Shown piece by piece: positions 3,392 through 23,647 of a stretch of 64,000 nt of DNA. A program made the translations under genes and the position numbers. The notes beneath the pieces are model-generated. The model was given only the letters and a program-made list of their open reading frames with translations. It ran no database searches and was not told the DNA's origin. The stretch is from Oceanobacillus halotolerans (GTDB lineage: Bacteria; Bacillota; Bacilli; Bacillales; Amphibacillaceae), in NCBI RefSeq assembly GCF_010993955.1, contig NZ_WIXL01000015.1:1-64000 (forward strand). The letters are read 5' to 3'. Position 1 is the stretch's first letter. Every line of letters begins with the position of its first letter.

Positions 3392-4705
3392 CTATATTTC
3401 AATCTCCTTCCGTTTACTAGAAGGTGGAATATTTAATTCATCACGATATTTTGCAACTGTTCGACGTGAAATGGTAATTCCTTTTTCTGTTTTAAAAAAG
3501 TCAGCAATTTTTTGATCCGAAAATGGCTTTTTCTTATTTTCACTCTCTACAAAACGTTTTAATAGATGCTTTACATTCGCCTGTGACAAATCATCCCCAT
3601 AATTAGTTGCAATCTTGGATGTAAAAAGCATTCGATAATCAAAGGTGCCAACAGGGGTTTGGATCACTTTATTCATTGTTGCACGGCTTACCGTCGACTC
3701 GTGTAATTCCACTTCATTTGCTATTTCCCTTAATGTCATTGGTTTCAAGTCAGCAAAACCATTATGGAGAAACGCTTGTTGTTTTTCAATAATAGCTTGT
3801 GTCACTTTCAAGATAGTTGTTCTCCGTTTATCCACACTATTTACTAGCCATTGGTACTTCCGATAGTGCTCCTGCATATACTTTCCAATATCACCTTTTT
3901 CTTTTAATAAATGGGTGTAATCTCGCTGTATATGAATAGTAGGTAAATAGGTATCATTTAAAGTGACAACAAATTTCCCATTTTCATCTTTAATCATAAC
4001 ATCTGGTATGTAGTAATCCGTACGTGTATTGGATCGTAAATCACACGGCTTTGGGTCAAGTGTTTGAATAAGATCATTGGCTTTCTTCACATCCTGTAGG
4101 GATACATCTAATTGTTTAGCTATCTCATGCCACTTTTTATTCGCTAATAATGGAAGATATGCTTCGATTATAGAAAGAGTAACTTGTTCATCTGGGTAAT
4201 AATGTCGCGCTTGAAGCAATAAGCATTCCTGTAAACTTCTCGCACCAATCCCTATTGGTTCTAATTGCTGAACGAGCTGAACTCCCTTCTCTACTTCTTG
4301 CATACTCATTCCTTTATATTCTACGATTTCTCCCACGCTTATTGGTAAATACCCATTATCATCTAAGTTTAATAGAATATAGTGGATCAACTCTTTTTCT
4401 CTTTTTGCGATCGATAACCACCGTATTTGTTCCATTAATTCATCCCTTATGCTCAACTGCTTTGCAGGCATAAAATCTATCGGATCTTGATGGGATGACA
4501 CATCTCGCTGTCTGGAACGCCGTGTTACTGTATAAGGCATGTCAAAAGGCTTTTCTTTCAGTTCAATTAAAGGATTCTCTAGCTCTTGTTCTTGTAAAAA
4601 TTGATACAAATCATAGGTCGAATATTGTAATAGTTCAATTGCTTGTTTTAATTGGGTTGTCATCACCAGATTAAGTGTTTGATTCTGCTGAAGCATAAGA
4701 TCCAT
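3392..4705 (-). CDS. rpoN: RNA polymerase sigma-54 factor (RpoN/SigL)
   Basis: Sigma-54 factor of 437 residues, near the length of Bacillus SigL. The N-terminus is the glutamine/leucine-rich activator-interacting region I (MLQQNQTLNLVMTTQLKQAI). The core-binding and DNA-binding domains follow, and the C-terminus carries the RpoN box as SRRTVAKYRDEL (canonical ARRTVAKYRE). Start ATG 4705 has AGGGGG nine bases upstream. The gene lies next to one sigma-54 activator and about 8 kb from a second, and four to five sigma-54-type promoters occur in the window. Such clustering of the factor with its dependent catabolic operons fits a dedicated regulon. Confidence 0.96.
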   Translation of the reverse strand: MDLMLQQNQTLNLVMTTQLKQAIELLQYSTYDLYQFLQEQELENPLIELKEKPFDMPYTVTRRSRQRDVSSHQDPIDFMPAKQLSIRDELMEQIRWLSIAKREKELIHYILLNLDDNGYLPISVGEIVEYKGMSMQEVEKGVQLVQQLEPIGIGARSLQECLLLQARHYYPDEQVTLSIIEAYLPLLANKKWHEIAKQLDVSLQDVKKANDLIQTLDPKPCDLRSNTRTDYYIPDVMIKDENGKFVVTLNDTYLPTIHIQRDYTHLLKEKGDIGKYMQEHYRKYQWLVNSVDKRRTTILKVTQAIIEKQQAFLHNGFADLKPMTLREIANEVELHESTVSRATMNKVIQTPVGTFDYRMLFTSKIATNYGDDLSQANVKHLLKRFVESENKKKPFSDQKIADFFKTEKGITISRRTVAKYRDELNIPPSSKRKEIEI

Positions 4706-5524: not shown

Positions 5525-7015
5525 TTAATCTTCTTGTAAGTTTACCCAAATTTGTTTCACTTCTGTATAATTATCTAAGGCATAGTTCCCCATCTCACGG
5601 CCAATACCAGATTGTTTATAACCACCAAAGGCTGCGGCTGGATTTTCTTGGTTATAATCATTAATCCAGACATTTCCTGCTTTTAATTTATTTGCCACAT
5701 TATGTCCAGTACGAATATTTTCCGTCCAAACGGCTGCAGCTAAGCCATATTCACTATCATTCGCACGACGTACTGCCTCTTCTGTTGTATCAAATGGGAA
5801 TACCGTAACAACTGGTCCAAATATCTCTTCACGCGCAATCGTCATGTCATCTTCTACATCTGCAAAAACAGTCGGACTAATAAAGTACCCTTTATCGAAC
5901 GGCTTTTCTCCACCTGCTACGAGTTTTGCACCTTCTTCTTTTCCTTTTTCAATATAGCCATAGACGCGATCGTACTGCTCTTTTGACACTAAAGGACCCA
6001 TATCTGTATCAGGATCTAATCCATTGCCAAGTTTCACATCATTTGCTCGTTTTACTAATTCATCGACGACACGATCATAGTGTTTACGGTGAACAAAGAC
6101 ACGGGAGCCTGCACTACAATTTTGACCGTGGTTATACATAATACCATCAAAAGCACCTTCAATAGCCTTTTCTACATCCGCATCTTCCAAAATAATATTT
6201 GGGGATTTACCACCAAGCTCTAACGTAACATGCTTTACTTGGTCAGCTGCTTTTTTCATAATTTGTTTTCCAACTACGGTTGAACCTGTAAATGCTAACT
6301 TATCAACATCTTCATGCTCAACAATTGCCGCTCCTGTTGTTTCTCCATAACCTGGGACAAAATTGACCACACCATCAGGGAAACCTGCTTCCTTAAATAG
6401 TTTCGCAGCGTACAATAAGGAAAGTGGTGTTTGTTCAGCAGGCTTTAACACAACCGTACATCCTGTTGCAAGTGCTGCACCCAACTTCCAAGATGCCATC
6501 GATAATGGGAAGTTCCATGGAATGATTTGGCCTGCTACTCCCACTGGCTCATGTCGAGTATAAGTTAAATAATCAGGGAAAATAGGAACAGTTTGCCCTA
6601 ATACTTTTGTTGCCCAACCTGCATAATAACGGAAGTGTTCAGCTGTTCCATCAATATCATCTTCTAAAGCGACTTGATATGGCTTTCCATTATCTAATGC
6701 TTCTAATTGCGCTAGTTCTTCTCGGTGCTCTTCAATTAAATCTGCCAGTTTATAAATCATGTGTGAACGTTCTGCTGCACTCAAGTTAGGCCATTCTCCA
6801 CCTTCAAATGCTCGTCGTGCTGCTTTAACAGCCTTATCGACATCTTCAGGCTGTGCTTCACTGACATGTGCAAGGACTTCTTCAGTTGCTGGATTGAATA
6901 CTTCGAATGTCTTCCCACTTTCTGCGGGTACATATTCACCATTAATATAGAGCTCTTTTTTACCTTCTAAAAATTCCTTTACTTTCGGTTTTAAGCTTAC
7001 CTCTGATGTAATCAT
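5525..7015 (-). CDS. Aldehyde dehydrogenase, probable 2-oxoglutarate semialdehyde dehydrogenase
   Basis: NAD(P)-dependent aldehyde dehydrogenase of 496 residues, full length for the family. The general base E266 lies in LELGGKSPN and the catalytic C300 in GQNCSAGSR. The cofactor-binding region includes PWNFPLSM and the FTGSTVVGK motif. AGGAGG precedes the ATG. Sequence alone resembles generic DhaS-type enzymes. The operon (racemase, D-amino-acid dehydrogenase, DHDPS-like deaminase) points to oxidation of 2-oxoglutarate semialdehyde to 2-oxoglutarate, the last step of hydroxyproline breakdown. It is the last gene of the leftward unit, 13 bases after the deaminase gene, and is followed by a strong terminator. 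Family assignment is secure; the substrate is inferred. Confidence 0.93.
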   Translation of the reverse strand: MITSEVSLKPKVKEFLEGKKELYINGEYVPAESGKTFEVFNPATEEVLAHVSEAQPEDVDKAVKAARRAFEGGEWPNLSAAERSHMIYKLADLIEEHREELAQLEALDNGKPYQVALEDDIDGTAEHFRYYAGWATKVLGQTVPIFPDYLTYTRHEPVGVAGQIIPWNFPLSMASWKLGAALATGCTVVLKPAEQTPLSLLYAAKLFKEAGFPDGVVNFVPGYGETTGAAIVEHEDVDKLAFTGSTVVGKQIMKKAADQVKHVTLELGGKSPNIILEDADVEKAIEGAFDGIMYNHGQNCSAGSRVFVHRKHYDRVVDELVKRANDVKLGNGLDPDTDMGPLVSKEQYDRVYGYIEKGKEEGAKLVAGGEKPFDKGYFISPTVFADVEDDMTIAREEIFGPVVTVFPFDTTEEAVRRANDSEYGLAAAVWTENIRTGHNVANKLKAGNVWINDYNQENPAAAFGGYKQSGIGREMGNYALDNYTEVKQIWVNLQED

Positions 7016-9457: not shown

Positions 9458-10369
9458 CTACTTTAGTAAAAACCCATCTGGCAATGGATCATCAACGTCA
9501 TATACAAATTGATGCATTCCTGTAACAAATCCTGTCGCTTCCATTTTGAATTTACTACTTGAATCTGGGATAAACCTTGATGTTAATTGGCTATCAACTA
9601 TACTTATGTTCGTAAGCTCCTCAACTTTCCTTCTACTTAATGTATCCGTGTGAATGGCAAATGTACTATCCATACCAGGAGATCGTACAATACTTCCATC
9701 CTTTTCAAACGTCACAGATCGAACCCTGTTTTTTGATAATGGTTCCACTAGAATAACGCCAGTAAAGATACGACGAGTTGCTTGTAGCTGTTCGGTTAGT
9801 TCTTTTCCGTACTGCATAATTGTTGCTAAATGATCTACTTGTAAACTAGGGATCAAATTTGGTAATGGATAGATATAATAATTTCGTAATCCATCTACTT
9901 CTACTAAGCTATAATCCTTTGTTTGCTCAATCAGTCGACTAGAATCACTTTCAAAGGAAACGGAAGTTACTTCATTCTCTTCTGTTGAAACAGAAACGGT
10001 ATAAACACCTTGAATTGTTTCGATTTTATATTCATTGTTCACTTTTTTTGCTAAGTTACCTGTTTCGATAAGTGCTGTAATTGTTGTCACTAATCCACCA
10101 TATTTAAACTGTTGGTCATGATCATGATGGAAAAATAAAATTGCTATATCTGCTTTATCAGATGGCGTAACAATACATCCATTCATTCCACGATGTCCGC
10201 GTGGTTCATTTAAGAGAAAATACTTTTCATGCTGGAAATCAGATTGTAAACGCTTATTATTTTGTAAAATATCCGTTTCATTCAACACGATTGATGCTTG
10301 GACAACAATTCGAAATGCCTCCCCAGCAACATGGGTATCAATCGTTGTAAACATTTTTTCCATATCCAT
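9458..10369 (-). CDS. Proline racemase-family paralogue lacking both catalytic cysteines
   Basis: Protein of 303 residues with the proline racemase fold markers: IDTHVAGEAFR at the N-terminus, NEPRGHRGMNGC near residue 60, and GMHQFVYDVDDPLPDGF at the C-terminus. In active racemases and epimerases the two bases are cysteines in MCGH and [10 protein letters not shown]. Here the first region reads QQFKYGGLVTT and the second reads IVRSPGMDSTF, so both cysteines are gone. It is also shorter than its neighbour (340 residues). Racemization by the normal two-cysteine mechanism looks impossible. It could be a partner subunit, a binding protein or a new enzyme. AAGGAGG precedes ATG 10369, which sits 13 bases after the end of the active racemase gene. 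Confidence 0.85.
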   Translation of the reverse strand: MDMEKMFTTIDTHVAGEAFRIVVQASIVLNETDILQNNKRLQSDFQHEKYFLLNEPRGHRGMNGCIVTPSDKADIAILFFHHDHDQQFKYGGLVTTITALIETGNLAKKVNNEYKIETIQGVYTVSVSTEENEVTSVSFESDSSRLIEQTKDYSLVEVDGLRNYYIYPLPNLIPSLQVDHLATIMQYGKELTEQLQATRRIFTGVILVEPLSKNRVRSVTFEKDGSIVRSPGMDSTFAIHTDTLSRRKVEELTNISIVDSQLTSRFIPDSSSKFKMEATGFVTGMHQFVYDVDDPLPDGFLLK

Positions 10370-10382
10370 TACACACACCTCC

Positions 10383-11405
10383 TTAATGATCATCCATTGG
10401 CGGAATTAGTAAAAACCCTTCTTTTAACGGGTCCTTTTCATTGTAGAAAAAGCGATGCATCCCCATTATCCACGCTGATCCAGTCACTTCAGCAATAACT
10501 GCCTCAAGATCCTTCACATTTGTCGTTTCAAGTACTTTAGCTTTAAATAAGGACCCAACAATGCTTTCATGGACAAACAACTCATCTACTCCAATTTCTT
10601 TATTCGTGAACATCGTTGCTAATTTAGCCGATGTTCCTGTACCACATGGAGAGCGATCAATTCCTCCTGGAGGGACAACTACTGTATTTTTCACGGTTGC
10701 ATCAGGATGGACTGGATCTGTGAAAAACTCAATATGGGTTAACCCATTAATAAAGGGCTGATCTGGATGAACCACTTCCTCTGTTTCATTAATCGTATTT
10801 CGAATCGTAATCGCTGTATCAATAATCTTTGATGCATTATCTGTTGTTAAATCCAACTCTAACTTTCTAGCATCAATGATTCCATAAAAATTCCCACCAT
10901 AAGCGATATCACATTCTACGGTTCCTATTTCCTCTACTTCTACCTCAATTGATTTCAATAAAAAGGCAGGAACATTCGCAAAGGATACTTCTTCTGCTTT
11001 ACCGTCTTTTATTTTGATTGTTACTTCCACTAATCCCGCGGGTGTATCTAATGTTAATGACGTGTATGGCTCTTCTATCTCAATTAATCCAGCCTCTACA
11101 AGTGCGGTACAACACCCGATCGTATCGTGGCCGCACATTGGCAAATAACCACCTGTCTCAATATAAATAACCCCAATATCTGCATCTGGATGGCATGGAT
11201 CTACTAATAATGCACCTGACATCACATCATGACCACGCGGTTCATTCATTAAAAATTTTCGAATCCAATCATAATTCTCTTTCATATACAACATTTTTTC
11301 TGACATCGTATTTCCCTTTAACGGTGGTAAGCCACTAATAACTGTTCTCGTCGGATTCCCACCTGTATGGGTATCAATCGTAGAAAATAACCGTTGAAAT
11401 TTCAT
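10383..11405 (-). CDS. Proline racemase / 4-hydroxyproline 2-epimerase
   Basis: Protein of 340 residues with both catalytic cysteines: C91 in MCGHDTIGC and C254 in [11 protein letters not shown]. The N-terminal STIDTHTGGNPTR and the NEPRGHDVMSG motif are also present. Members of this family interconvert L- and D-proline or epimerize trans-4-hydroxy-L-proline to cis-4-hydroxy-D-proline. With a D-amino-acid-type dehydrogenase immediately upstream, 4-hydroxyproline epimerase is the more likely role. Two cysteines (not Cys/Thr) argue against a trans-3-hydroxyproline dehydratase. The ATG overlaps the region of the preceding gene stop (TAGATG), which suggests translational coupling. Confidence 0.92.
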   Translation of the reverse strand: MKFQRLFSTIDTHTGGNPTRTVISGLPPLKGNTMSEKMLYMKENYDWIRKFLMNEPRGHDVMSGALLVDPCHPDADIGVIYIETGGYLPMCGHDTIGCCTALVEAGLIEIEEPYTSLTLDTPAGLVEVTIKIKDGKAEEVSFANVPAFLLKSIEVEVEEIGTVECDIAYGGNFYGIIDARKLELDLTTDNASKIIDTAITIRNTINETEEVVHPDQPFINGLTHIEFFTDPVHPDATVKNTVVVPPGGIDRSPCGTGTSAKLATMFTNKEIGVDELFVHESIVGSLFKAKVLETTNVKDLEAVIAEVTGSAWIMGMHRFFYNEKDPLKEGFLLIPPMDDH

Positions 11406-12639: not shown

Positions 12640-12746
12640 CTTTTTGAACAGCATAAAATTCAAAATAATATTGCTCTTTGAAAAATAATGTGTAAAAATA
12701 TTTATAAAGTGTACATTAACTTATACAGTTAAACGGGGTGATAAAT

Positions 12747-14471
12747 GTGTACGTAAAAAAAGGTGAATGGAAAGACTTTATGGGAATGGATTTTAAATTA
12801 ATACGAGATGAAAACGACTATACCGAAAAGAAAATAAGATCCCTTCTTGATTCGAATCAATCTGAACCCATTTTTTTAGTGCAAGAAGATAAAACATATC
12901 ATGTAAAAATGGATACATCGACAAAACAACTGCAGTACATAAGATGTGGTGAATTATCTAGAATTGCTGACATCAGGGAGTGCGTAGATCTACTTAATAT
13001 TTTTGAAAGCGTTGTCATCAAAAAGGATAACGGAAAAATAATTGGGTATCTTGATCATCAAAAGTTCTGTGAAAAATTAATAACCGCCAATAACGAACTA
13101 AAAGCCTATTTGTCAACGATCGTCGCTACTGTTGATGAATCTTGTACCGTTATTGACAGCGATAAACGTGTCGTCGTTTGGTCAAAAGGAGCGGAAAAAC
13201 TATTTTCCGTAAAAAGTGAAGAAATTATCGGAAAACCCATTACCGACTTCTTTAGTCCTGATCGATTGGAAATTTTAAATACGTTAAAAGAGGAAACATC
13301 TGTCTACCATAGTCAACATATTGCACGTGAAAACCAAGTTGTGTTAATTAATTCAAATCCTGTACATTACAATGATCAGGTTATTGGAGCAGTTGTTTCC
13401 GAGCAGGATATCACTAGTCAAGTGAAACTTAACAAAGAACTGTACACCACATCAGAACGGTTATTTAATTTGGAAAAAGAAGTCAACAAATTAATGGCAA
13501 AAGAAGATCCGTTTGCTCCAATCAGAGGAAACAGTAGTGTATTAGACAAGACAAAGAACAAAATCATAAAAGCTTCCTCTACCGACGCAAATATATTAAT
13601 TCACGGAGAAAGTGGGGTTGGGAAAGAATTATTTGCCAAAGCTACCCATCATATTCGGGAAGGGAAACAAGCGCCATTTGTCGCCCTTAACTGTGGTGCA
13701 ATTCCTGCTGCTCTTTTCGAAAGTGAAATCTTTGGTTATGAAAAAGGAGCATTTTCTGGTGCTGACCAAAAAGGGAAAAAAGGGAAAGTAGAACTGGCAA
13801 AAGGCGGAACACTATTTTTGGACGAGATTGGTGAGATGCCATTAGATATGCAAGTGAAAATCTTACGTTTACTACAGGAAAAGCGATTTTATCCAGTAGG
13901 AGGGACAAAAGAAATTGAAGTGGACTTCCATGTTGTTGCTGCTACTAATCGTGATCTAAAAGAACTAATTAAAGAAGGAAAATTTAGAGAAGACCTCTAT
14001 TATCGACTAAACGTTGTAAGTATTGAGATCCCTCCTTTACGAGAAAGACCTGAGGATATCATTGAACTTACACATTATTTCCTGCACGAAATTTCGATTA
14101 AGTATAACCGACCGATTCACGGCGTATCTCAAGCTGTTATGCAAACACTCTTGCAGCATAACTGGCCTGGTAACATACGAGAATTAAAAAATGTAATCGA
14201 GCGACTCGTTGTATTTTCCGATAATGGGGAAATCAAACTGGAAGACCTCCCATTTGATACAGATATAATAGAAAACGGAAACCCTAACCCCTCTATTTAT
14301 ATGGATAACGATAACCGGTCTTTGAACGATCGTCTACAAGAACTGGAAAAAGAAATTATTTTAAAAGAGTTACAAAAAGTAGATGGCAATAAACAAAATT
14401 GTGCAAAGAACTTGCAAATCACCCGAGCAACCCTCTACAACCGCCTAAACAAGCTTGGGATAAAAGTTTAA
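12747..14471 (+). CDS. Sigma-54-dependent activator with PAS sensor (hydroxyproline locus regulator)
   Basis: Enhancer-binding protein of about 574 residues. Order: a short N-terminal region, a PAS domain (about 115-225) where the effector probably acts, the AAA+ ATPase (Walker A GESGVGKE near residue 287, sigma-54 loop near 334, Walker B GGTLFLDEIGEM), and a Fis-type helix-turn-helix at the C-terminus (NCAKNLQITRATLYNRLNKL). The sigma-54 contact loop reads GAFSGA instead of GAFTGA. I choose GTG 12747, six bases after GGGGTG; GTG 12738 and ATG 12780 are alternatives. It lies between divergent sigma-54 promoters (12623-12639 and 14478-14494), so it very likely controls both units and perhaps the hydantoinase unit. 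Confidence 0.92.
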   Translation: MYVKKGEWKDFMGMDFKLIRDENDYTEKKIRSLLDSNQSEPIFLVQEDKTYHVKMDTSTKQLQYIRCGELSRIADIRECVDLLNIFESVVIKKDNGKIIGYLDHQKFCEKLITANNELKAYLSTIVATVDESCTVIDSDKRVVVWSKGAEKLFSVKSEEIIGKPITDFFSPDRLEILNTLKEETSVYHSQHIARENQVVLINSNPVHYNDQVIGAVVSEQDITSQVKLNKELYTTSERLFNLEKEVNKLMAKEDPFAPIRGNSSVLDKTKNKIIKASSTDANILIHGESGVGKELFAKATHHIREGKQAPFVALNCGAIPAALFESEIFGYEKGAFSGADQKGKKGKVELAKGGTLFLDEIGEMPLDMQVKILRLLQEKRFYPVGGTKEIEVDFHVVAATNRDLKELIKEGKFREDLYYRLNVVSIEIPPLRERPEDIIELTHYFLHEISIKYNRPIHGVSQAVMQTLLQHNWPGNIRELKNVIERLVVFSDNGEIKLEDLPFDTDIIENGNPNPSIYMDNDNRSLNDRLQELEKEIILKELQKVDGNKQNCAKNLQITRATLYNRLNKLGIKV

Positions 14472-14477
14472 GGCTAG

Positions 14478-14494
14478 TTGGCATCAATCTTGCA
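14478..14494 (+). promoter_or_regulatory. Sigma-54 promoter of the rightward iron-sulfur/FAD unit
   Basis: TTGGCAT, five bases, TTGCA, with GG-N10-GC spacing. It starts 6 bases after the activator stop codon. Transcription would start near 14505, which places the open frame at 14478 inside the promoter and supports the downstream TTG start at 14535. Confidence 0.88.
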
Positions 14495-14534
14495 TATTTT
14501 GTTGGGTACAGACATTACAGTAGGAGTGATCCAA

Positions 14535-14801
14535 TTGACAGAAGACATGATTATATGCAGATGTGAAGAGGTTACTTATAAAGAATTAGCCGAAACAGCC
14601 AATAAATATAACTGTTCAGCAAGGGAATTAAAGCTACGAACAAGAGCTGGAATGGGGTATTGTGGTGGTCGAACATGTCGTAATATGGTCGATAAACTAG
14701 CAGCTGATTTAACGGATGAAAGACAAACACAAATCACATTAAAATATCAACCCCCAATACGACCAATTCACTTTGGTGACTTAGGAGGAGGTCAATCATG
14801 A
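14535..14801 (+). CDS. BFD-like [2Fe-2S]-binding subunit
   Basis: Small protein of 88 residues with the bacterioferritin-associated-ferredoxin cysteine pattern: C8 and C10 in ICRCEEV, then C43 and C48 in CGGRTC. Such modules occur in multi-subunit dye-linked proline and hydroxyproline dehydrogenases, where they carry electrons between flavin subunits. TTG 14535 is chosen because AGGAG lies eight bases upstream and because the upstream in-frame region is the sigma-54 promoter. An alternative is the ATG at 14547. The stop overlaps the next ATG by four bases (ATGA), which indicates tight coupling. Confidence 0.88.
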   Translation: MTEDMIICRCEEVTYKELAETANKYNCSARELKLRTRAGMGYCGGRTCRNMVDKLAADLTDERQTQITLKYQPPIRPIHFGDLGGGQS

Positions 14802-15136
14802 CACAACGCATTGTAGACCATCCAATACTTGGCTCCATAGAAGAAAAGGAGCAAGTTTCTTTTACATTTAACGAAAAAGAATATTACGGAATGAATGGAG
14901 AACCAATCGCAGCAGCACTATTGGCAAATGGTGTTCGAACCCTTCGACATCATGAAGAAAAGGCCACACCTAGAGGAATTTATTGTAATATTGGTCATTG
15001 CTTTGAATGTCGCGTCACCGTTGATGGGAAGCAAGGTGTTCGTTCCTGTCTAACGCCCCTTCAAGAGGGAATGGTGATCGAAAGTGGTGGTACACTTCCA
15101 ACCCCTGTTAAGGATTGGAGTGCTAAGAATGAATAA
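14798..15136 (+). CDS. [2Fe-2S] ferredoxin-like subunit of the dehydrogenase (LhpF/HcnA-like)
   Basis: Protein of 112 residues of the ferredoxin-like type fused or associated with sarcosine oxidase alpha and HcnA. Cysteines C63, C68, C71 and C84 (CNIGHCFEC, then RSC) form a plant-type [2Fe-2S] site. The N-terminal half has the GMNGEPIAAALLANGVRTLR signature of this family. In hydroxyproline-degrading pseudomonads the equivalent subunit is LhpF. The upstream and downstream genes overlap it, so the three are expected to be made together. The catalytic partner is probably the flavoprotein at 11406-12587. Confidence 0.88.
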   Translation: MTQRIVDHPILGSIEEKEQVSFTFNEKEYYGMNGEPIAAALLANGVRTLRHHEEKATPRGIYCNIGHCFECRVTVDGKQGVRSCLTPLQEGMVIESGGTLPTPVKDWSAKNE

Positions 15137-16346
15137 TGTCATTATAATCGGCGCGGGTCCCGCAGGAATGTCAGCAGCAATTGCCTGTGCTCAAAAGGGA
15201 TTGGATGTCGTTGTCATCGATGAGTATTTAAAAGCTGGTGGTAGATTACTAGGTCAGCTTTATGAACAGCCAGATGGGTCTTGGTGGAACGGAATAGAAG
15301 AATCAGCTCGGTTACATCAGCAAGCGTTAGATCTTGGGGTTCAAATCCAACTAAACACACCTGTAAACAATATTGAGCATCATGATGGTCAATGGACGAT
15401 TTATACCGAACATGAAACACTTTCTACTAATCATTTATTGCTAGCAACTGGAGCTGCAGAGTCGCCAATACCAGTACCTGGATGGACGTTACCTGGTGTC
15501 ATGTCTGTTGGAGCTGCTCAAGTGATGACGAATGTGCATCGAGTAAAACCCGGTGAACGTGGGGTAATTATTGGTGTGAATGTTCTATCTTCCGCAATTG
15601 CAATGGAATTAAAATTGGCCGGAATCGATGTAGCATGTATGGCATTACCAAAAATGAGTCAACTAACCGATCAACAAGCACACCCTAAGCATGTACTAGA
15701 TTCATTGCTTCACGTTTCCCATATGGCACCATCACAATTTGTAAAACTAGGAAGTAAGTTAATGAAGAATGATTTCATGAAAAAATTAGGGGTTACTTTT
15801 TATCCGAAAAGAGGCGTCAACATGTGGGATATTCCAATACAACTTCGAAAAGCAGTTATCGAAATCTATGGGGAAAAGCAAGTAGAAGGCGTTACAGTAG
15901 CCACCATAGATTCAAATGGTGAGATAGTTGCTGGAACAGAAGAAAATGTAGAAGCTGATTTCGTTTGCATTGCGGGTGGATTGTATCCATTAGCAGAATT
16001 AGCCGCACTTACAGGTTGTCCCTTTTATTTAATAGAAGAATTAGGTGGCTATATTCCATTACATAATGAACGAATGGAAACCCCATTAGATGGGTTATAT
16101 GTTGCTGGAAATATTACAGGTATTGAAGGTGCCAAAGTTGCAGCAGCACAAGGAACAACAGCTGGACTTACCATTGCAAAACAGGCTGGTTTTGAAGGGT
16201 TGGATGGAGAAATAGAGGAAGCGATTCAAGTGGTGGAAGAAACCAGGGATCAATCTTATATTCAATTTCATCCGGAAGTGAATAAGGGGAGAGAAATGGT
16301 TAAGGAGAAGTGGGAGGAATATGTTCTTCCATTAAGATCGATTTAA
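15129..16346 (+). CDS. FAD/NAD(P)-binding subunit of the dehydrogenase (LhpE/HcnB-like)
   Basis: Pyridine-nucleotide-disulfide-reductase-type flavoprotein of 405 residues. The N-terminal dinucleotide fold is NNVIIIGAGPAGMSAAIACA. A second nucleotide-binding region lies near residue 150 (GERGVIIGVNVLSSAIAMEL), and a C-terminal FAD contact reads GLYVAGNITGIEGAKVAAAQG. The family covers HcnB, opine oxidase subunit A and LhpE, which pair with DAO-type catalytic subunits. ATG 15129 follows GGAGTG and overlaps the end of the previous gene by eight bases. It is the third gene of the sigma-54 unit. Subunit role is inferred from family and context. Confidence 0.88.
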   Translation: MNNVIIIGAGPAGMSAAIACAQKGLDVVVIDEYLKAGGRLLGQLYEQPDGSWWNGIEESARLHQQALDLGVQIQLNTPVNNIEHHDGQWTIYTEHETLSTNHLLLATGAAESPIPVPGWTLPGVMSVGAAQVMTNVHRVKPGERGVIIGVNVLSSAIAMELKLAGIDVACMALPKMSQLTDQQAHPKHVLDSLLHVSHMAPSQFVKLGSKLMKNDFMKKLGVTFYPKRGVNMWDIPIQLRKAVIEIYGEKQVEGVTVATIDSNGEIVAGTEENVEADFVCIAGGLYPLAELAALTGCPFYLIEELGGYIPLHNERMETPLDGLYVAGNITGIEGAKVAAAQGTTAGLTIAKQAGFEGLDGEIEEAIQVVEETRDQSYIQFHPEVNKGREMVKEKWEEYVLPLRSI

Positions 16347-16460: not shown

Positions 16461-18503
16461 ATGACAAAATATCGCTTAGCCGCTGACATCGGTGGTACAT
16501 TTACTGACGTAGTATTGTTCGATAAAGAGACAGGTCAATATAAAACCGAAAAAGTTCCAACAACCAACGAGAATCTTTCAGAGGGGGTTTTAAGTGGAAT
16601 TAGTAGAATGGTAACTGATTTTAACGATGTTGATTTTTTTGTACATGGAACAACAGTTGGACTTAATGCTTTCTTAGAAAGAAAAGGATCTAAAATTGCA
16701 TTAATCGTTACATCTGGTTTTAAAGATTTATATGAAATAGGCCGTGCTAATCGCTCGGAAATCTATAATATTCAATACCGACAGCCAGAACCTCTAATTA
16801 AACGCCGCCATGTTTATGAGGTAGAAGAACGTGTTTTAGTAGATGGACAAGTAGATACACCTATAAATCATAATAGCTTAGATAATGTTATTGAGGAAAT
16901 TTCAAAAGGAGATTATGATTCAGTATCGGTATGCTTGTTACACTCATACAAAAATCCAGATCATGAGAAACATATTAAACAAAGGATACAAGAAAAGATG
17001 CCTGGTATGTCTGTTTCCTTATCACATGAAGTTGTACGAGAGTGGCGCGAATATGAAAGAACAAGTACAACTGTTATAAATGCCTATATTGCTCCAATTG
17101 TAGAAGATTATCTGTTAAAGTTTGAAAATGAAATAGATAATAGAGGATTAAACAGAGACTTATATATTATGCAATCTAACGGTGGGGTTATGACATCTGA
17201 AATTGCAAAATCAAAACCAATTCAAACGCTTTTATCTGGACCTGTTGGAGGTACAATGGGTAGTTTAACACTTGGTCAACAAACACAAAAAGATAATCTA
17301 ATATGTGTTGATATGGGTGGAACTAGTTTTGATGTAAGTATGGTTATCAACGAAGAACCTGATGTTACCTCTGAAGGAAACATCGAAAAATTCCCAATAC
17401 TCTCACCAATGGTTAATATGCACACAATTGGTGCTGGAGGCGGATCAATAGCTTGGATTGAAGGCGGAGGATTACGAGTAGGCCCTCATAGTGCTGGCGC
17501 TAACCCTGGACCAGCTTGCTACGGAAATGGCGGTACAAATCCAACTGTGACTGACGCTAACCTTATATTAGGCCGGATTGATGCCGAGGGCTTTTTAGGT
17601 GGAAAAATGACACTTGATTGGCAAGCAGCCTATGATGCCATTGAAAACCTTGCTAACAAATTAGAGTTAACAGTTAATGAAACTGCTGAAGGTATATGTG
17701 ATATAGCTAATGCCAAAATGGCAGATGCAATTAGAACGTTAACAGTTTCTAAGGGGATAGATCCAAGAGATTTTTCTTTGGTTGCTTTTGGTGGTGCAGG
17801 CCCAATGCACTCTATGTTAATTGCAGATTACTTAGACATTAATAGAATACTTATCCCTACTACTGCGGGAACCTTTTCAGCATGGGGAATGCTACAAACA
17901 GATATTAGACATGATGATGTACGCAACTATGTATCCTTATTGAAAGACAGCGACTACACAAAAATTAGTGGCCTCTATAAAGAAATGGAGCAAAATGCAG
18001 AAATAGTTCTTAAACAACAAAACATCTCGAAACAAGATGTTGACTTTAACAGACTAGTGGACCTGCGATATGTAGGACAAGAGTATACCGTTACCGTACC
18101 ATTAAATGAAAACGGTTTAAATGAAACATCTATAAGTGAATTAGAGTCACTTTTCCATGATTCTCACCAGAATATATATGGACATAACAATCCCGAAGGT
18201 GCAGTTGAAGTAGTAAACTTGCGTATAGTAGCCCTAGGTAAACTTGAGAACAAAGAAAACATCCAAGCTTCCGAAAAATCTGTAGGAGCACCGGAGCCTA
18301 TAAGAAGAAAACCAGTTATTTGGAACAATCAAGAAATACAAACTCCGGTATATTCAACAGACGACTTACTATTTGGACATACAATAAATGGCCCGACAAT
18401 TATTGAATCTCCAACGTCAACTATTGTTGTTCCAAAGAACTACCTAGTGAAGGTTGATAGTGTAGGAAATCTTGAAGTGATTAGGAGGAATGAAGATGAG
18501 TAA
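16461..18503 (+). CDS. hyuA: Hydantoinase/oxoprolinase-family subunit A
   Basis: ATP-binding ASKHA-type subunit of 680 residues. It has ADIGGTFTDVVLFD at the N-terminus (Hydant_A_N), HGTTVGLNAFLERKG, and the central ATPase motifs SGPVGGTMGS and CVDMGGTSFDVSM. Family members hydrolyse cyclic amides (N-methylhydantoin, 5-oxoproline) in an ATP-dependent way or carboxylate ketones together with subunit B. AAGGAGG lies upstream of ATG 16461. The sigma-54 promoter directly ahead and the overlap with the next gene define a unit separate from, but adjacent to, the hydroxyproline genes. The base composition looks more AT-rich than in neighbouring catabolic genes. The substrate cannot be told from sequence. 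Confidence 0.93.
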   Translation: MTKYRLAADIGGTFTDVVLFDKETGQYKTEKVPTTNENLSEGVLSGISRMVTDFNDVDFFVHGTTVGLNAFLERKGSKIALIVTSGFKDLYEIGRANRSEIYNIQYRQPEPLIKRRHVYEVEERVLVDGQVDTPINHNSLDNVIEEISKGDYDSVSVCLLHSYKNPDHEKHIKQRIQEKMPGMSVSLSHEVVREWREYERTSTTVINAYIAPIVEDYLLKFENEIDNRGLNRDLYIMQSNGGVMTSEIAKSKPIQTLLSGPVGGTMGSLTLGQQTQKDNLICVDMGGTSFDVSMVINEEPDVTSEGNIEKFPILSPMVNMHTIGAGGGSIAWIEGGGLRVGPHSAGANPGPACYGNGGTNPTVTDANLILGRIDAEGFLGGKMTLDWQAAYDAIENLANKLELTVNETAEGICDIANAKMADAIRTLTVSKGIDPRDFSLVAFGGAGPMHSMLIADYLDINRILIPTTAGTFSAWGMLQTDIRHDDVRNYVSLLKDSDYTKISGLYKEMEQNAEIVLKQQNISKQDVDFNRLVDLRYVGQEYTVTVPLNENGLNETSISELESLFHDSHQNIYGHNNPEGAVEVVNLRIVALGKLENKENIQASEKSVGAPEPIRRKPVIWNNQEIQTPVYSTDDLLFGHTINGPTIIESPTSTIVVPKNYLVKVDSVGNLEVIRRNEDE

Positions 18504-20211
18504 AACAACTGCTCCCGTTTTTTTAGAGAACCCTATTACTACTGAAATAATTCGGAATGCATTAACTTCTGCGGCAGAAGAAATGAATGAAAGTTTAGCC
18601 CGTAGTTCTTTTTCGCCGATAATCTATGAGATGAAAGATTGTAGTGTAGGAATTTACAATGAAAATGCAGAATTATTAGGACAATCCTCGGGGTTACCAA
18701 TGTTTTTGGGAAATCTTGACGTTTGTATAAAAGAAACTACTAGCTTCATAGGTGGTAATGATAAATACAACCCTGGTGATATTTATATAATGAACGATTC
18801 TTATATGGCAGGTTCTCACTTGAACGATATTACTATAATATCACCTATTTTCTTTGAACAAGAATTAGTAGGTTTTTCTGCTACACGTGCTCATTGGTTA
18901 GATATCGGAGCAAAAGACCCTGGTTATCCCATGGATGCAATTGAAATTTATCAAGAAGGTGTAAGAATTCCACCTACAAAAATTTATGATGCGGGTAATC
19001 CTCGTAAAGATATTATAAACCTTATTACAATTAATAGTCGTTTAAGTAATGATGCATTAGGAGACATGAATGCACAAATTGCAGCATGTAGAACAGGTGA
19101 AAAAAGAGTTACAGACATTATAACAAAACACGGTCTTAATACTTTTAAACGTTCAATTCAGGATATATTCAAACAATCAGAAATTATGGACCGGGAACAA
19201 ATTGCAAGTATTCCAGATGGTGTTTATGAAGAAGAAGGTTTTCTAGATAATGATGGAGTATCTGATGAACCAGTACCTGTTAAAGTTAAAGTAACGATCG
19301 ATGGAGAAAACTTAACAATTGACCTAAATGGATCAAGTGAGCAAAAACAAGGTATGACTAATTGTGGATTAGCACAAACTGTTTCAGCTTGCCGTGTTGC
19401 ATTCAAGCATTTAATTGGTCCAGATTCTCCAGTAACAGGTGGGAACTTTAAAACAATGGATATTGTTGTTCCTAAACGATCCATATTCAGTGCTGAAGAA
19501 CCAGCTGCTTGTGGATGGTATTTTACTTCTTTGGGATTATTAATAGATTTAATCGTTAAGGCTTTATCTCCTGTACTAAAAGAACAATCTGCAGCAGCTC
19601 ATTACGGAGATTCAATGGTTGTAACTATTGCTGGTCAAAACAAAGATTCCACATCCCAATTCTTATATGTAGAACCTACTGCAGGGGGTTGGGGTGGATT
19701 CTCATCTAACGATGGGCAATCAGGATTAATTAATAACTCTAATGGGGACTTTAAAAATATGCCAGTTGAAGTCCTAGAAGAAAAGTATCCATTAAAAATT
19801 AATTCATATTCTCTTAGGGAAAACTCCGGGGGACCAGGAAAAACTAGAGGTGGTCTAGGTGTTACAAGAGAATATGAACTTCGAAGTAATGCAAACCTAT
19901 CACTATGGTTTGAAAGATCACAAGAACCCGCTTGGGGACTATTTGGAGGCAAGTCAGGAAAGCCACCTAAAGTTACGGTAATAGCAAAGAATGAAGAAGA
20001 ATCTATGTTAAAAGTAAACGCTAAACCACTTTCAAAAGGAGACCGTATACTTGTAGAAACTGGTGGAGGCGGTGGATTTGGTAATTCAGTTGAACGCCCA
20101 TTAGAAAATATTGTGGAAGATATAATTGATGGTTACATCGATAGTGAAACAGCACTAGAGGAATATGGAGTTACTTTTGATCCCAAAACAGGAAAAGCTT
20201 ATAGAAACTAA
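18496..20211 (+). CDS. hyuB: Hydantoinase/oxoprolinase-family subunit B
   Basis: Subunit B of 571 residues. The family start NPITTEIIRNALTSAAEEM, the MNDSYMAGSHLNDI metal-binding region and the C-terminal glycine-rich GGGGGFGNS are all present. It forms the catalytic complex with subunit A. I choose ATG 18496, seven bases after AGGAGG; the ATG at 18490 is only one base away from it. It overlaps the subunit A stop by eight bases. The following gene is a DUF3830-like protein that often accompanies such enzymes. Confidence 0.93.
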   Translation: MSKTTAPVFLENPITTEIIRNALTSAAEEMNESLARSSFSPIIYEMKDCSVGIYNENAELLGQSSGLPMFLGNLDVCIKETTSFIGGNDKYNPGDIYIMNDSYMAGSHLNDITIISPIFFEQELVGFSATRAHWLDIGAKDPGYPMDAIEIYQEGVRIPPTKIYDAGNPRKDIINLITINSRLSNDALGDMNAQIAACRTGEKRVTDIITKHGLNTFKRSIQDIFKQSEIMDREQIASIPDGVYEEEGFLDNDGVSDEPVPVKVKVTIDGENLTIDLNGSSEQKQGMTNCGLAQTVSACRVAFKHLIGPDSPVTGGNFKTMDIVVPKRSIFSAEEPAACGWYFTSLGLLIDLIVKALSPVLKEQSAAAHYGDSMVVTIAGQNKDSTSQFLYVEPTAGGWGGFSSNDGQSGLINNSNGDFKNMPVEVLEEKYPLKINSYSLRENSGGPGKTRGGLGVTREYELRSNANLSLWFERSQEPAWGLFGGKSGKPPKVTVIAKNEEESMLKVNAKPLSKGDRILVETGGGGGFGNSVERPLENIVEDIIDGYIDSETALEEYGVTFDPKTGKAYRN

Positions 20212-22548: not shown

Positions 22549-23553
22549 CTATTCCAACCTAAACCCCTCAGGCATTTCATCTCGCTCATCTACAACAAAT
22601 TGGTGAAGCCCTGTAATTCGTGCTGTTCCTGAAATCATTGGTACAACAGCTGGATAGTTTTCTACTTCAGTAGGTTGAATGATCTCTCCTTTAAAAATAC
22701 CTCCAGTAATACTTTCATGTAGGAAAGTGTCCCCCTGATTAAACTCACCTCTGTCAAACAAATTTGCCACTCGAGCACTTGTCCCTGTCCCACATGGTGA
22801 ACGATCAATTTGTCTATCCGCAAAAATGGTGACATTGCGTAAATCAGCATGACCATTTACGGCATCGTCTGAAAAAATGACACCGTAAATATCTTTTAAA
22901 TCATTTTGTAAAGGATGTTGAACATTACTATTTTTCTCTATAAATAGCTTTATTTTCTTACCCCAATCCTGTAATGCTGGTAAACACTCATTGTTGACCT
23001 TTAACCCTAATGCTTTACTGTCCAATATGGCATAAAACGCTCCACCGAACGCAATGTCAACATGAAATGATTTACCATCTAACTGAATTGGATAATCTTT
23101 TTTATATACAAATGATGGAACATTTTCAAAGGAAACCTCCACCACTTTCTGACCATCACAAACTGCATAAGCGATGACTTCTCCAGCTGGACTATCAATA
23201 ACAAATTTTCGCTTATTACTTGTTACAGGGTATTTTCCAGTCTCCACTACCATTGTCACCGCCGCAATAATTCCATGACCACACATGGTGCTCCAGCCCT
23301 CATTATGCATGAATAATACGCCAAAATCAGCATGATCTGATGCAGCTGGAGTGATGATACAGCCATACATTCCGTGATGTCCTCTTGGTTCATTCATCAG
23401 GACTTTTCGAATGTGATCCAAATACTTTATACAATATGCTCTTCGCTCAGGTTGCGAGTCTCCTTTTATTTCTGGAAGTCCTCCCGTTATAATCCGAAGT
23501 GGTTCTCCTGCCACGTGCATATCAACGGTTGACACTAATCGATTAAAATTCAC
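22549..23553 (-). CDS. Proline racemase / 4-hydroxyproline epimerase, second active copy
   Basis: Protein of 334 residues with the two-cysteine active site: C91 in [11 protein letters not shown] and C254 in [13 protein letters not shown], the same positions as in the enzyme at 10383-11405. The [14 protein letters not shown] and [12 protein letters not shown] motifs are present. The start is GTG 23553 with AGGAGGGG seven bases upstream. It is a single-gene unit behind its own sigma-54-like promoter and stands divergently from the Xaa-Pro peptidase/proline dehydrogenase unit. One of the two active copies may act on proline and the other on hydroxyproline, but sequence does not decide this. Confidence 0.92.
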
Positions 23554-23579
23554 TTTTCGTCCCCTCCTATCATTATACT

Positions 23580-23596
23580 TGCAATTTTTATACCAA
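23580..23596 (-). promoter_or_regulatory. Sigma-54-like promoter of the third racemase gene
   Basis: The minus strand reads TTGGTAT, five A, TTGCA, with the invariant GG-N10-GC spacing and one deviation (T for C after GG). Transcription would start about 17 bases before the GTG, just ahead of the AGGAGGGG site. Confidence 0.7.
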
Positions 23597-23617
23597 ATAT
23601 TAATTTTCAGTAAACTA

Positions 23618-23647
23618 TTGTGGAATACTTCTTGCATGGTATATAAT
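23618..23647 (+). promoter_or_regulatory. Sigma-A promoter of the peptidase/proline dehydrogenase unit
   Basis: TTGTGG, 18 bases, TATAAT, followed after 14 bases by AGGAGG. The -35 is two bases off consensus and the -10 is perfect. It is divergent from the sigma-54 promoter of the racemase gene. Confidence 0.55.

Follow-up and report, generated by a model that had tools for sequence, protein, structure and literature searches.

A protein that we call B, encoded on the minus strand at 9458 to 10369 of a 64,000-nucleotide stretch of Oceanobacillus halotolerans DNA (contig NZ_WIXL01000015.1, positions 1 to 64,000; here, the window), is probably, though by no means certainly, a noncatalytic pseudoenzyme subunit of a two-protein hydroxyproline epimerase, in which it would stabilize or license the catalytic protein, A. 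Hydroxyproline is an amino acid of collagen, and the epimerase starts its breakdown. Catalytically dead paralogues serve as subunits elsewhere, as in the trypanosomatid AdoMetDC prozyme and HisZ, the partner of HisG. Like these, B is a degenerate paralogue beside an enzyme predicted to be active, with the fold kept and the catalytic residues lost. They differ from B in belonging to other enzyme families, and for A and B both the complex and the activation are predictions.

B lies beside A in a predicted hydroxyproline operon

The operon and its flanking elements are as follows.

5525 to 7015, minus strand: aldehyde dehydrogenase, predicted alpha-ketoglutarate semialdehyde dehydrogenase (profile; PMC4113996)
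7029 to 7922, minus strand: DHDPS/DapA-family protein, predicted 1-pyrroline-4-hydroxy-2-carboxylate deaminase (profile; PMC4113996)
7962 to 9377, minus strand: NhaC-type Na+/H+ antiporter family transporter, the next gene downstream of B (profile)
9458 to 10369, minus strand: B, putative Cys-less pseudoenzyme with a proline racemase fold, 303 aa (profile, alignment, model)
10370 to 10382, minus strand: 13-nt gap from the A stop to the B start, with the Shine-Dalgarno sequence GGAGGTG (sequence)
10383 to 11405, minus strand: A, Cys-Cys proline racemase family protein, predicted 4-hydroxyproline 2-epimerase (operon and PMC4113996)
11406 to 12587, minus strand: FAD-dependent oxidoreductase (DAO family), predicted D-hydroxyproline dehydrogenase/oxidase subunit (profile; PMC4113996)
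12623 to 12638, minus strand: sigma-54 -24/-12-like promoter TGGCATCGAATTTGCA upstream of the operon, a consensus match with 1 mismatch (the consensus scan gave 37 sites in the window versus 26.5 expected)
12738 to 14471, plus strand: divergent PrdR-like sigma-54-dependent activator with a PAS domain (NF041552, 534 bits, below the cutoff of 795)

The predicted gene roles, which follow Zhao et al. 2014 (PMC4113996), point to an operon for the full trans-4-hydroxyproline pathway. B starts with ATG and has its own GGAGGTG ribosome site; an earlier note on this DNA had rightly placed it in a catabolic operon with a ribosome site of its own. A scored 396.9 bits against PF05544. It has C91 in LPMCGHDT (MCGHD at 90 to 94) and C254 in DRSPCGTG (250 to 257), and from these residues we predict that it is catalytically active.

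We also observed other genes near the operon. Divergent to it on the plus strand (14478 to 16346) lie genes for two small 2Fe-2S proteins and an FAD oxidoreductase, which resemble the remaining subunits of a multisubunit D-hydroxyproline dehydrogenase; a sigma-54-like site lies at 14479 to 14494. Two caprolactamase alpha/beta-like genes (hydantoinase/oxoprolinase type; 16461 to 20211, plus strand) adjoin the hydroxyproline cluster, and a similar pair lies near the A gene of locus L218. A sigma-54 (RpoN) gene (3392 to 4705, minus strand) is found near the operon, which itself appears to be sigma-54 dependent. A further two-Cys proline racemase family gene (22549 to 23637, minus strand), with a weak sigma-54-like site at 23580 to 23595, lies near an Xaa-Pro peptidase gene and a proline dehydrogenase-like gene.

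B keeps the racemase scaffold and has lost the catalytic and binding residues

We found that B belongs to the racemase superfamily by profile (PF05544, 83.7 bits; cutoff, 27) and falls far below every NCBIfam equivalog cutoff. The score against NF045511 was 69.5 bits (cutoff, 540), with half of the length matched and K and G at the catalytic positions. In the alignment with A, K89 (in FKYGG) and G232 (in RSPGMDS) stand in place of C91 and C254, and B has neither the Cys-Cys nor the Ser-Cys acid/base pair of proline racemase and 4-hydroxyproline epimerase. Two substrate-binding residues are replaced as well, the His in MCGH by G91 and the Asp in DRSP by V228. The scaffold motifs IDTHVAGE, NEPRGH, and GMHQFV are present. 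The earlier note had described a racemase paralogue that lacks both catalytic cysteines and keeps these motifs, and our results agree with it on both counts.

Like the PF05544 enzymes (proline racemase, 4-hydroxyproline 2-epimerase, and trans-3-hydroxyproline dehydratase), B has the fold, a place in a catabolic operon, and the motifs DxHxxGE, EPRGH, RSP, and DPLxxGF. Unlike them, window B has Gly at position 2, lacks both a Cys or Ser at position 1 and the substrate-binding Asp and His, and is shortened in its middle segment.

The AlphaFold2 model of B (80 sequences) had a pLDDT of 92.2. Its closest solved structures were members of the proline racemase family (TM up to 0.85 for 6r76 and 0.83 for 6j7c), and comparison with TcPRAC gave a TM of 0.79 to 0.84. 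B is predicted to keep the two-domain racemase scaffold without a working pocket. In the monomer models of both proteins, confidence was lowest in the EPRGH loop and the C-terminal tail, conserved elements that may be contact surfaces.

We counted pocket residues in an alignment of 74 B orthologues. The first catalytic position was variable (mostly K, H, Q, or S, the commonest at 34%), and the second was Gly in 73 of 74. The carboxylate-binding His position was mostly G, E, S, or A, and the substrate-N-binding Asp position was mostly V or L. D11, H13, G16, R20, the EPRG loop, R229, and, at the C terminus, D294-P295 and G299-F300 were conserved, and 33 residues were invariant in an alignment of 20 sequences. 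C65, the sole Cys of window B, was present in 71 orthologues and missing in three, and it also occurs in two-Cys relatives of the type encoded at 22549 to 23637. Because C65 is shared with these relatives and is missing in some Bs, no catalytic Cys has been relocated to the pocket. We therefore rejected a shifted catalytic Cys, which the earlier note had named as grounds for giving up its idea; the only cysteine is ancestral and dispensable.

The absence of Cys alone is no proof of inactivity, since the Ser-Thr superfamily member B9K4G4, which has no Cys, was reported to be an active trans-3-hydroxyproline dehydratase (PMC4113996). Thus, the cysteine loss described in the earlier note is real but does not by itself imply inactivity. 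B is probably catalytically dead, judging from the joint loss of the base and the binding residues and from the variable catalytic positions in the alignment.

A and B form a conserved tandem

We fetched 147 B loci, counting some places twice, with about 106 distinct B proteins, and found A immediately upstream on the same strand in all 147. Loci retrieved with A cannot test whether B always occurs with A; searches with B as the query turned up no B that lacked A. The neighbor was a Cys-Cys racemase in all cases, so the constant company of an active racemase, proposed by the earlier note as a check, was observed at the level of predicted activity. The distinct Bs came from more than 25 genera of bacilli, many of them soil and marine.

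Among 80 named loci holding the closest As, B adjoined A in 78; the exceptions, with A and no B, were Bacillus sp. FJAT-47783 and Aneurinibacillus thermoaerophilus. More distant As, such as those in the 4- to 7-Mb genomes of group f68, had no adjacent B, although other pathway genes were in place. A also occurs without B in L079 and L093. This indicates that B is not required by every A. B-less operons retained the neighboring pathway genes, and thus no pathway step is lost when B is missing.

Among 102 distinct pairs, A and B overlapped by 4 nt in 47, abutted with a gap of 0 in 17, and had a gap of at most 21 nt in 96. Genes that overlap by 4 nt or touch have the arrangement of translationally coupled subunits. 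We saw no A-B fusion genes among the fetched loci. The gene after B varied, coding for NhaC, an APC permease, or a different transporter, and the A-B tandem stayed constant. At locus L216 (minus strand), the A gene, at about 3434 to 4588 of the reverse complement, is split over two frames, by a frameshift or a sequencing error.

A residue of A changes with the presence of B

We compared the residues of A alone with B presence in 138 distinct As, 110 with B and 28 without. Residue 54, which precedes EPRGH, was Asn in 105 of the 110 As with B, leaving five A-B pairs without Asn54. None of the 28 As without B had Asn; all had Phe or Tyr. Fisher's test gave a P value of about 1.7e-24, which ignores descent. 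Three independent contrasts fell on well-supported branches, none of them contrary, and the sign test was not significant. With only about three independent events on the tree, the link between Asn54 and B is suggestive, not significant. In one more lineage (f82), a reduced B of 248 aa likewise occurs together with Asn54. B itself has Asn at the matching position in 69 of 74 orthologues.

Probable homologues of A and B in published work

Zhao et al. found that proteins of their "teal" cluster 4, represented by B. cereus, were insoluble and could not be purified (PMC4113996). B. cereus BC2835 is the 4HypE of this cluster, and BC2834 is among the neighbors tested by qRT-PCR (PMC4113996). We found that the printed BC2835 primers encode TDPCHP and DTPAGL, which are A motifs, and that the BC2834 reverse primer encodes FIVRSP, a B motif. 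A sample of the genus gave one A-B pair, in the related genome L202, and the best matches of the BC2835 and BC2834 primers in L202 lie in its A and B, with 4 to 6 mismatches. Among 397 genomes of the order, none matched the BC2834 primer pattern. To judge from the primer sequences, A and B probably have their orthologues in BC2835 and BC2834, respectively. The account of the teal cluster in PMC4113996 neither describes BC2834 as a racemase relative nor proposes a pair.

Goytia et al. 2007 (PMC1964878) made the B. anthracis Cys-Cys proteins Q81PH1 and Q81UH1 alone and observed no proline racemase or hydroxyproline epimerase activity. They called this unexpected and pointed to pocket residues (PMC1964878). 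We infer that one of the two is the A orthologue. Both the insolubility in the teal cluster and the inactivity in B. anthracis would follow if A needs B. Our literature search found no paper on an A-B pair or on a proline racemase pseudoenzyme.

Origin of B and stages of loss

B probably descends from a two-Cys paralogue, as the trees and the range of tandem partners suggest. In a first quick tree, a branch (SH-aLRT, 95) set B apart, next to the two-Cys type encoded at 22549 to 23637. A second tree with other rows needed two changes for B, so B probably, though not certainly, arose once; the most divergent rows sit on long branches, and their placement is unsure.

The tandem partners of A differ in how much they retain, and stages of loss can be made out. 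Both Cys are present in L166 and L217 (VCGHG and RSPCGTG). The partner in L010 and L195 is 333 aa long and has no Cys (RSPSVSG), and those of L011, L012, and L044 are shorter than this. The type seen in the window comes next in this series. Remnant-like Bs of 245 to 249 aa follow A in L199 and L200 (245 aa) and in L209 to L211, and they keep little beyond DIHxxG, NEPRG, and a C-terminal GF(V/I)IK.

We also observed a Cys-less protein in tandem with A, whose catalytic positions hold Ser and Gly (ISGHG and RSPGGAG), in L212 (3197 to 4237, minus strand) and L213 (4847 to 5887, plus strand; open reading frame limits approximate in both). It groups apart from B in the tree and is perhaps a second, independent case of Cys loss. 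Racemase family proteins of L149, L151, and L152 have the first Cys (MCGHA) and Gly at the second position (RSPGGTG), a pair not among the types named in the relevant passages of PMC4113996 and PMC1964878.

Alternative explanations for B

The median dN/dS over 73 locus pairs was 0.20 for B and 0.07 for A, and all of the roughly 106 distinct B proteins collected were intact, with no stops. B is under purifying selection. That it is a decaying duplicate, a pseudogene in progress, is scarcely credible: the evolution of B is about three times faster than that of A, mean protein distances are 0.54 for B and 0.23 for A, and some lineages have short versions of 245 to 280 aa, but a dN/dS near 0.2, the lack of stops, a synteny that holds across more than 25 genera, and the 33 invariant residues in the 20-sequence alignment all oppose decay. 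We rejected it, and the earlier note, which had offered decaying homologues as its own refutation, withstands this test too. We consider it unlikely that B is an enzyme of new activity with a pocket rebuilt from H82, Y90, D224, N254, and W187. These residues were at least 95% conserved in the 74 orthologues (window B has Y at 187) and differ in A, and the Cys-less dehydratase described above (PMC4113996) is active. However, the variability of the first catalytic position is evidence against a new activity, as are the Gly at the second and the replacement of the binding Asp and His. Moreover, the pathway steps are all covered already, also where B is missing.

A still smaller chance falls to B as a ligand-binding sensor through which the sigma-54 activator or the transporter would respond to proline or hydroxyproline. 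B retains the two-domain clamshell fold, and the operon comes with both a PAS-domain sigma-54 activator and a sigma-54-like promoter; but B has lost the substrate-binding residues and tracks A rather than the regulator or transporter, and operons with the regulator but without B exist. We give an equally small chance to a role of B with the FAD-dependent hydroxyproline oxidoreductase, either as its subunit or scaffold or as a link that holds it and the epimerase in one complex. The oxidoreductase gene lies directly upstream of A, and in the distance correlation of A, B, and the oxidoreductase, the partial r with B was 0.63 for the oxidoreductase and 0.48 for A, so this correlation does not identify A as the partner. 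Distance correlation within one operon is weak evidence, however, and the oxidoreductase is present in B-less operons too.

The pseudoenzyme subunit is the best supported of the three options that the earlier note had left side by side, given the strict tandem, overlapping genes, purifying selection, intact predicted fold, and co-changing residue of A. The variability at the catalytic positions and the loss of the substrate-binding residues weaken the case for a new activity. A ligand-binding regulator is conceivable but less supported, and a PrdR-like sigma-54 activator already lies divergent to the operon.

Model and implications

B combines the features of a pseudoenzyme (catalytic residues lost, fold kept, and purifying selection) with the obligate co-occurrence with a predicted-active paralogue expected of a pseudoenzyme partner. 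According to our model of B as a noncatalytic subunit of the epimerase, A and B would be made together through translational coupling. B would then pair with A, most simply by replacing one protomer of the usual homodimer, and this pairing would let A fold, stay soluble, and/or be active. The genomic evidence leads us to expect a physical A-B complex and an effect of B on the solubility or activity of A.

More tentatively, the epimerase of many Bacillales may be a heteromer that requires both a catalytic and a dead subunit; A would have become dependent on B (Asn54 and nearby changes), and B would be shrinking in steps from a two-Cys ancestor, with L212 and L213 as perhaps a separate case. If this is true, A-B would be, to our knowledge, the first catalytic/dead paralogue pair among cofactor-independent racemases. 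This pairing could account for the insolubility or inactivity of Cys-Cys racemases from the Bacillus cereus group that were made alone, and many tandem genes annotated as "proline racemase family protein" would need to be renamed. The range from a two-Cys tandem partner to a 245-aa remnant would offer a well-sampled series for the change from an enzyme to a pseudoenzyme subunit.
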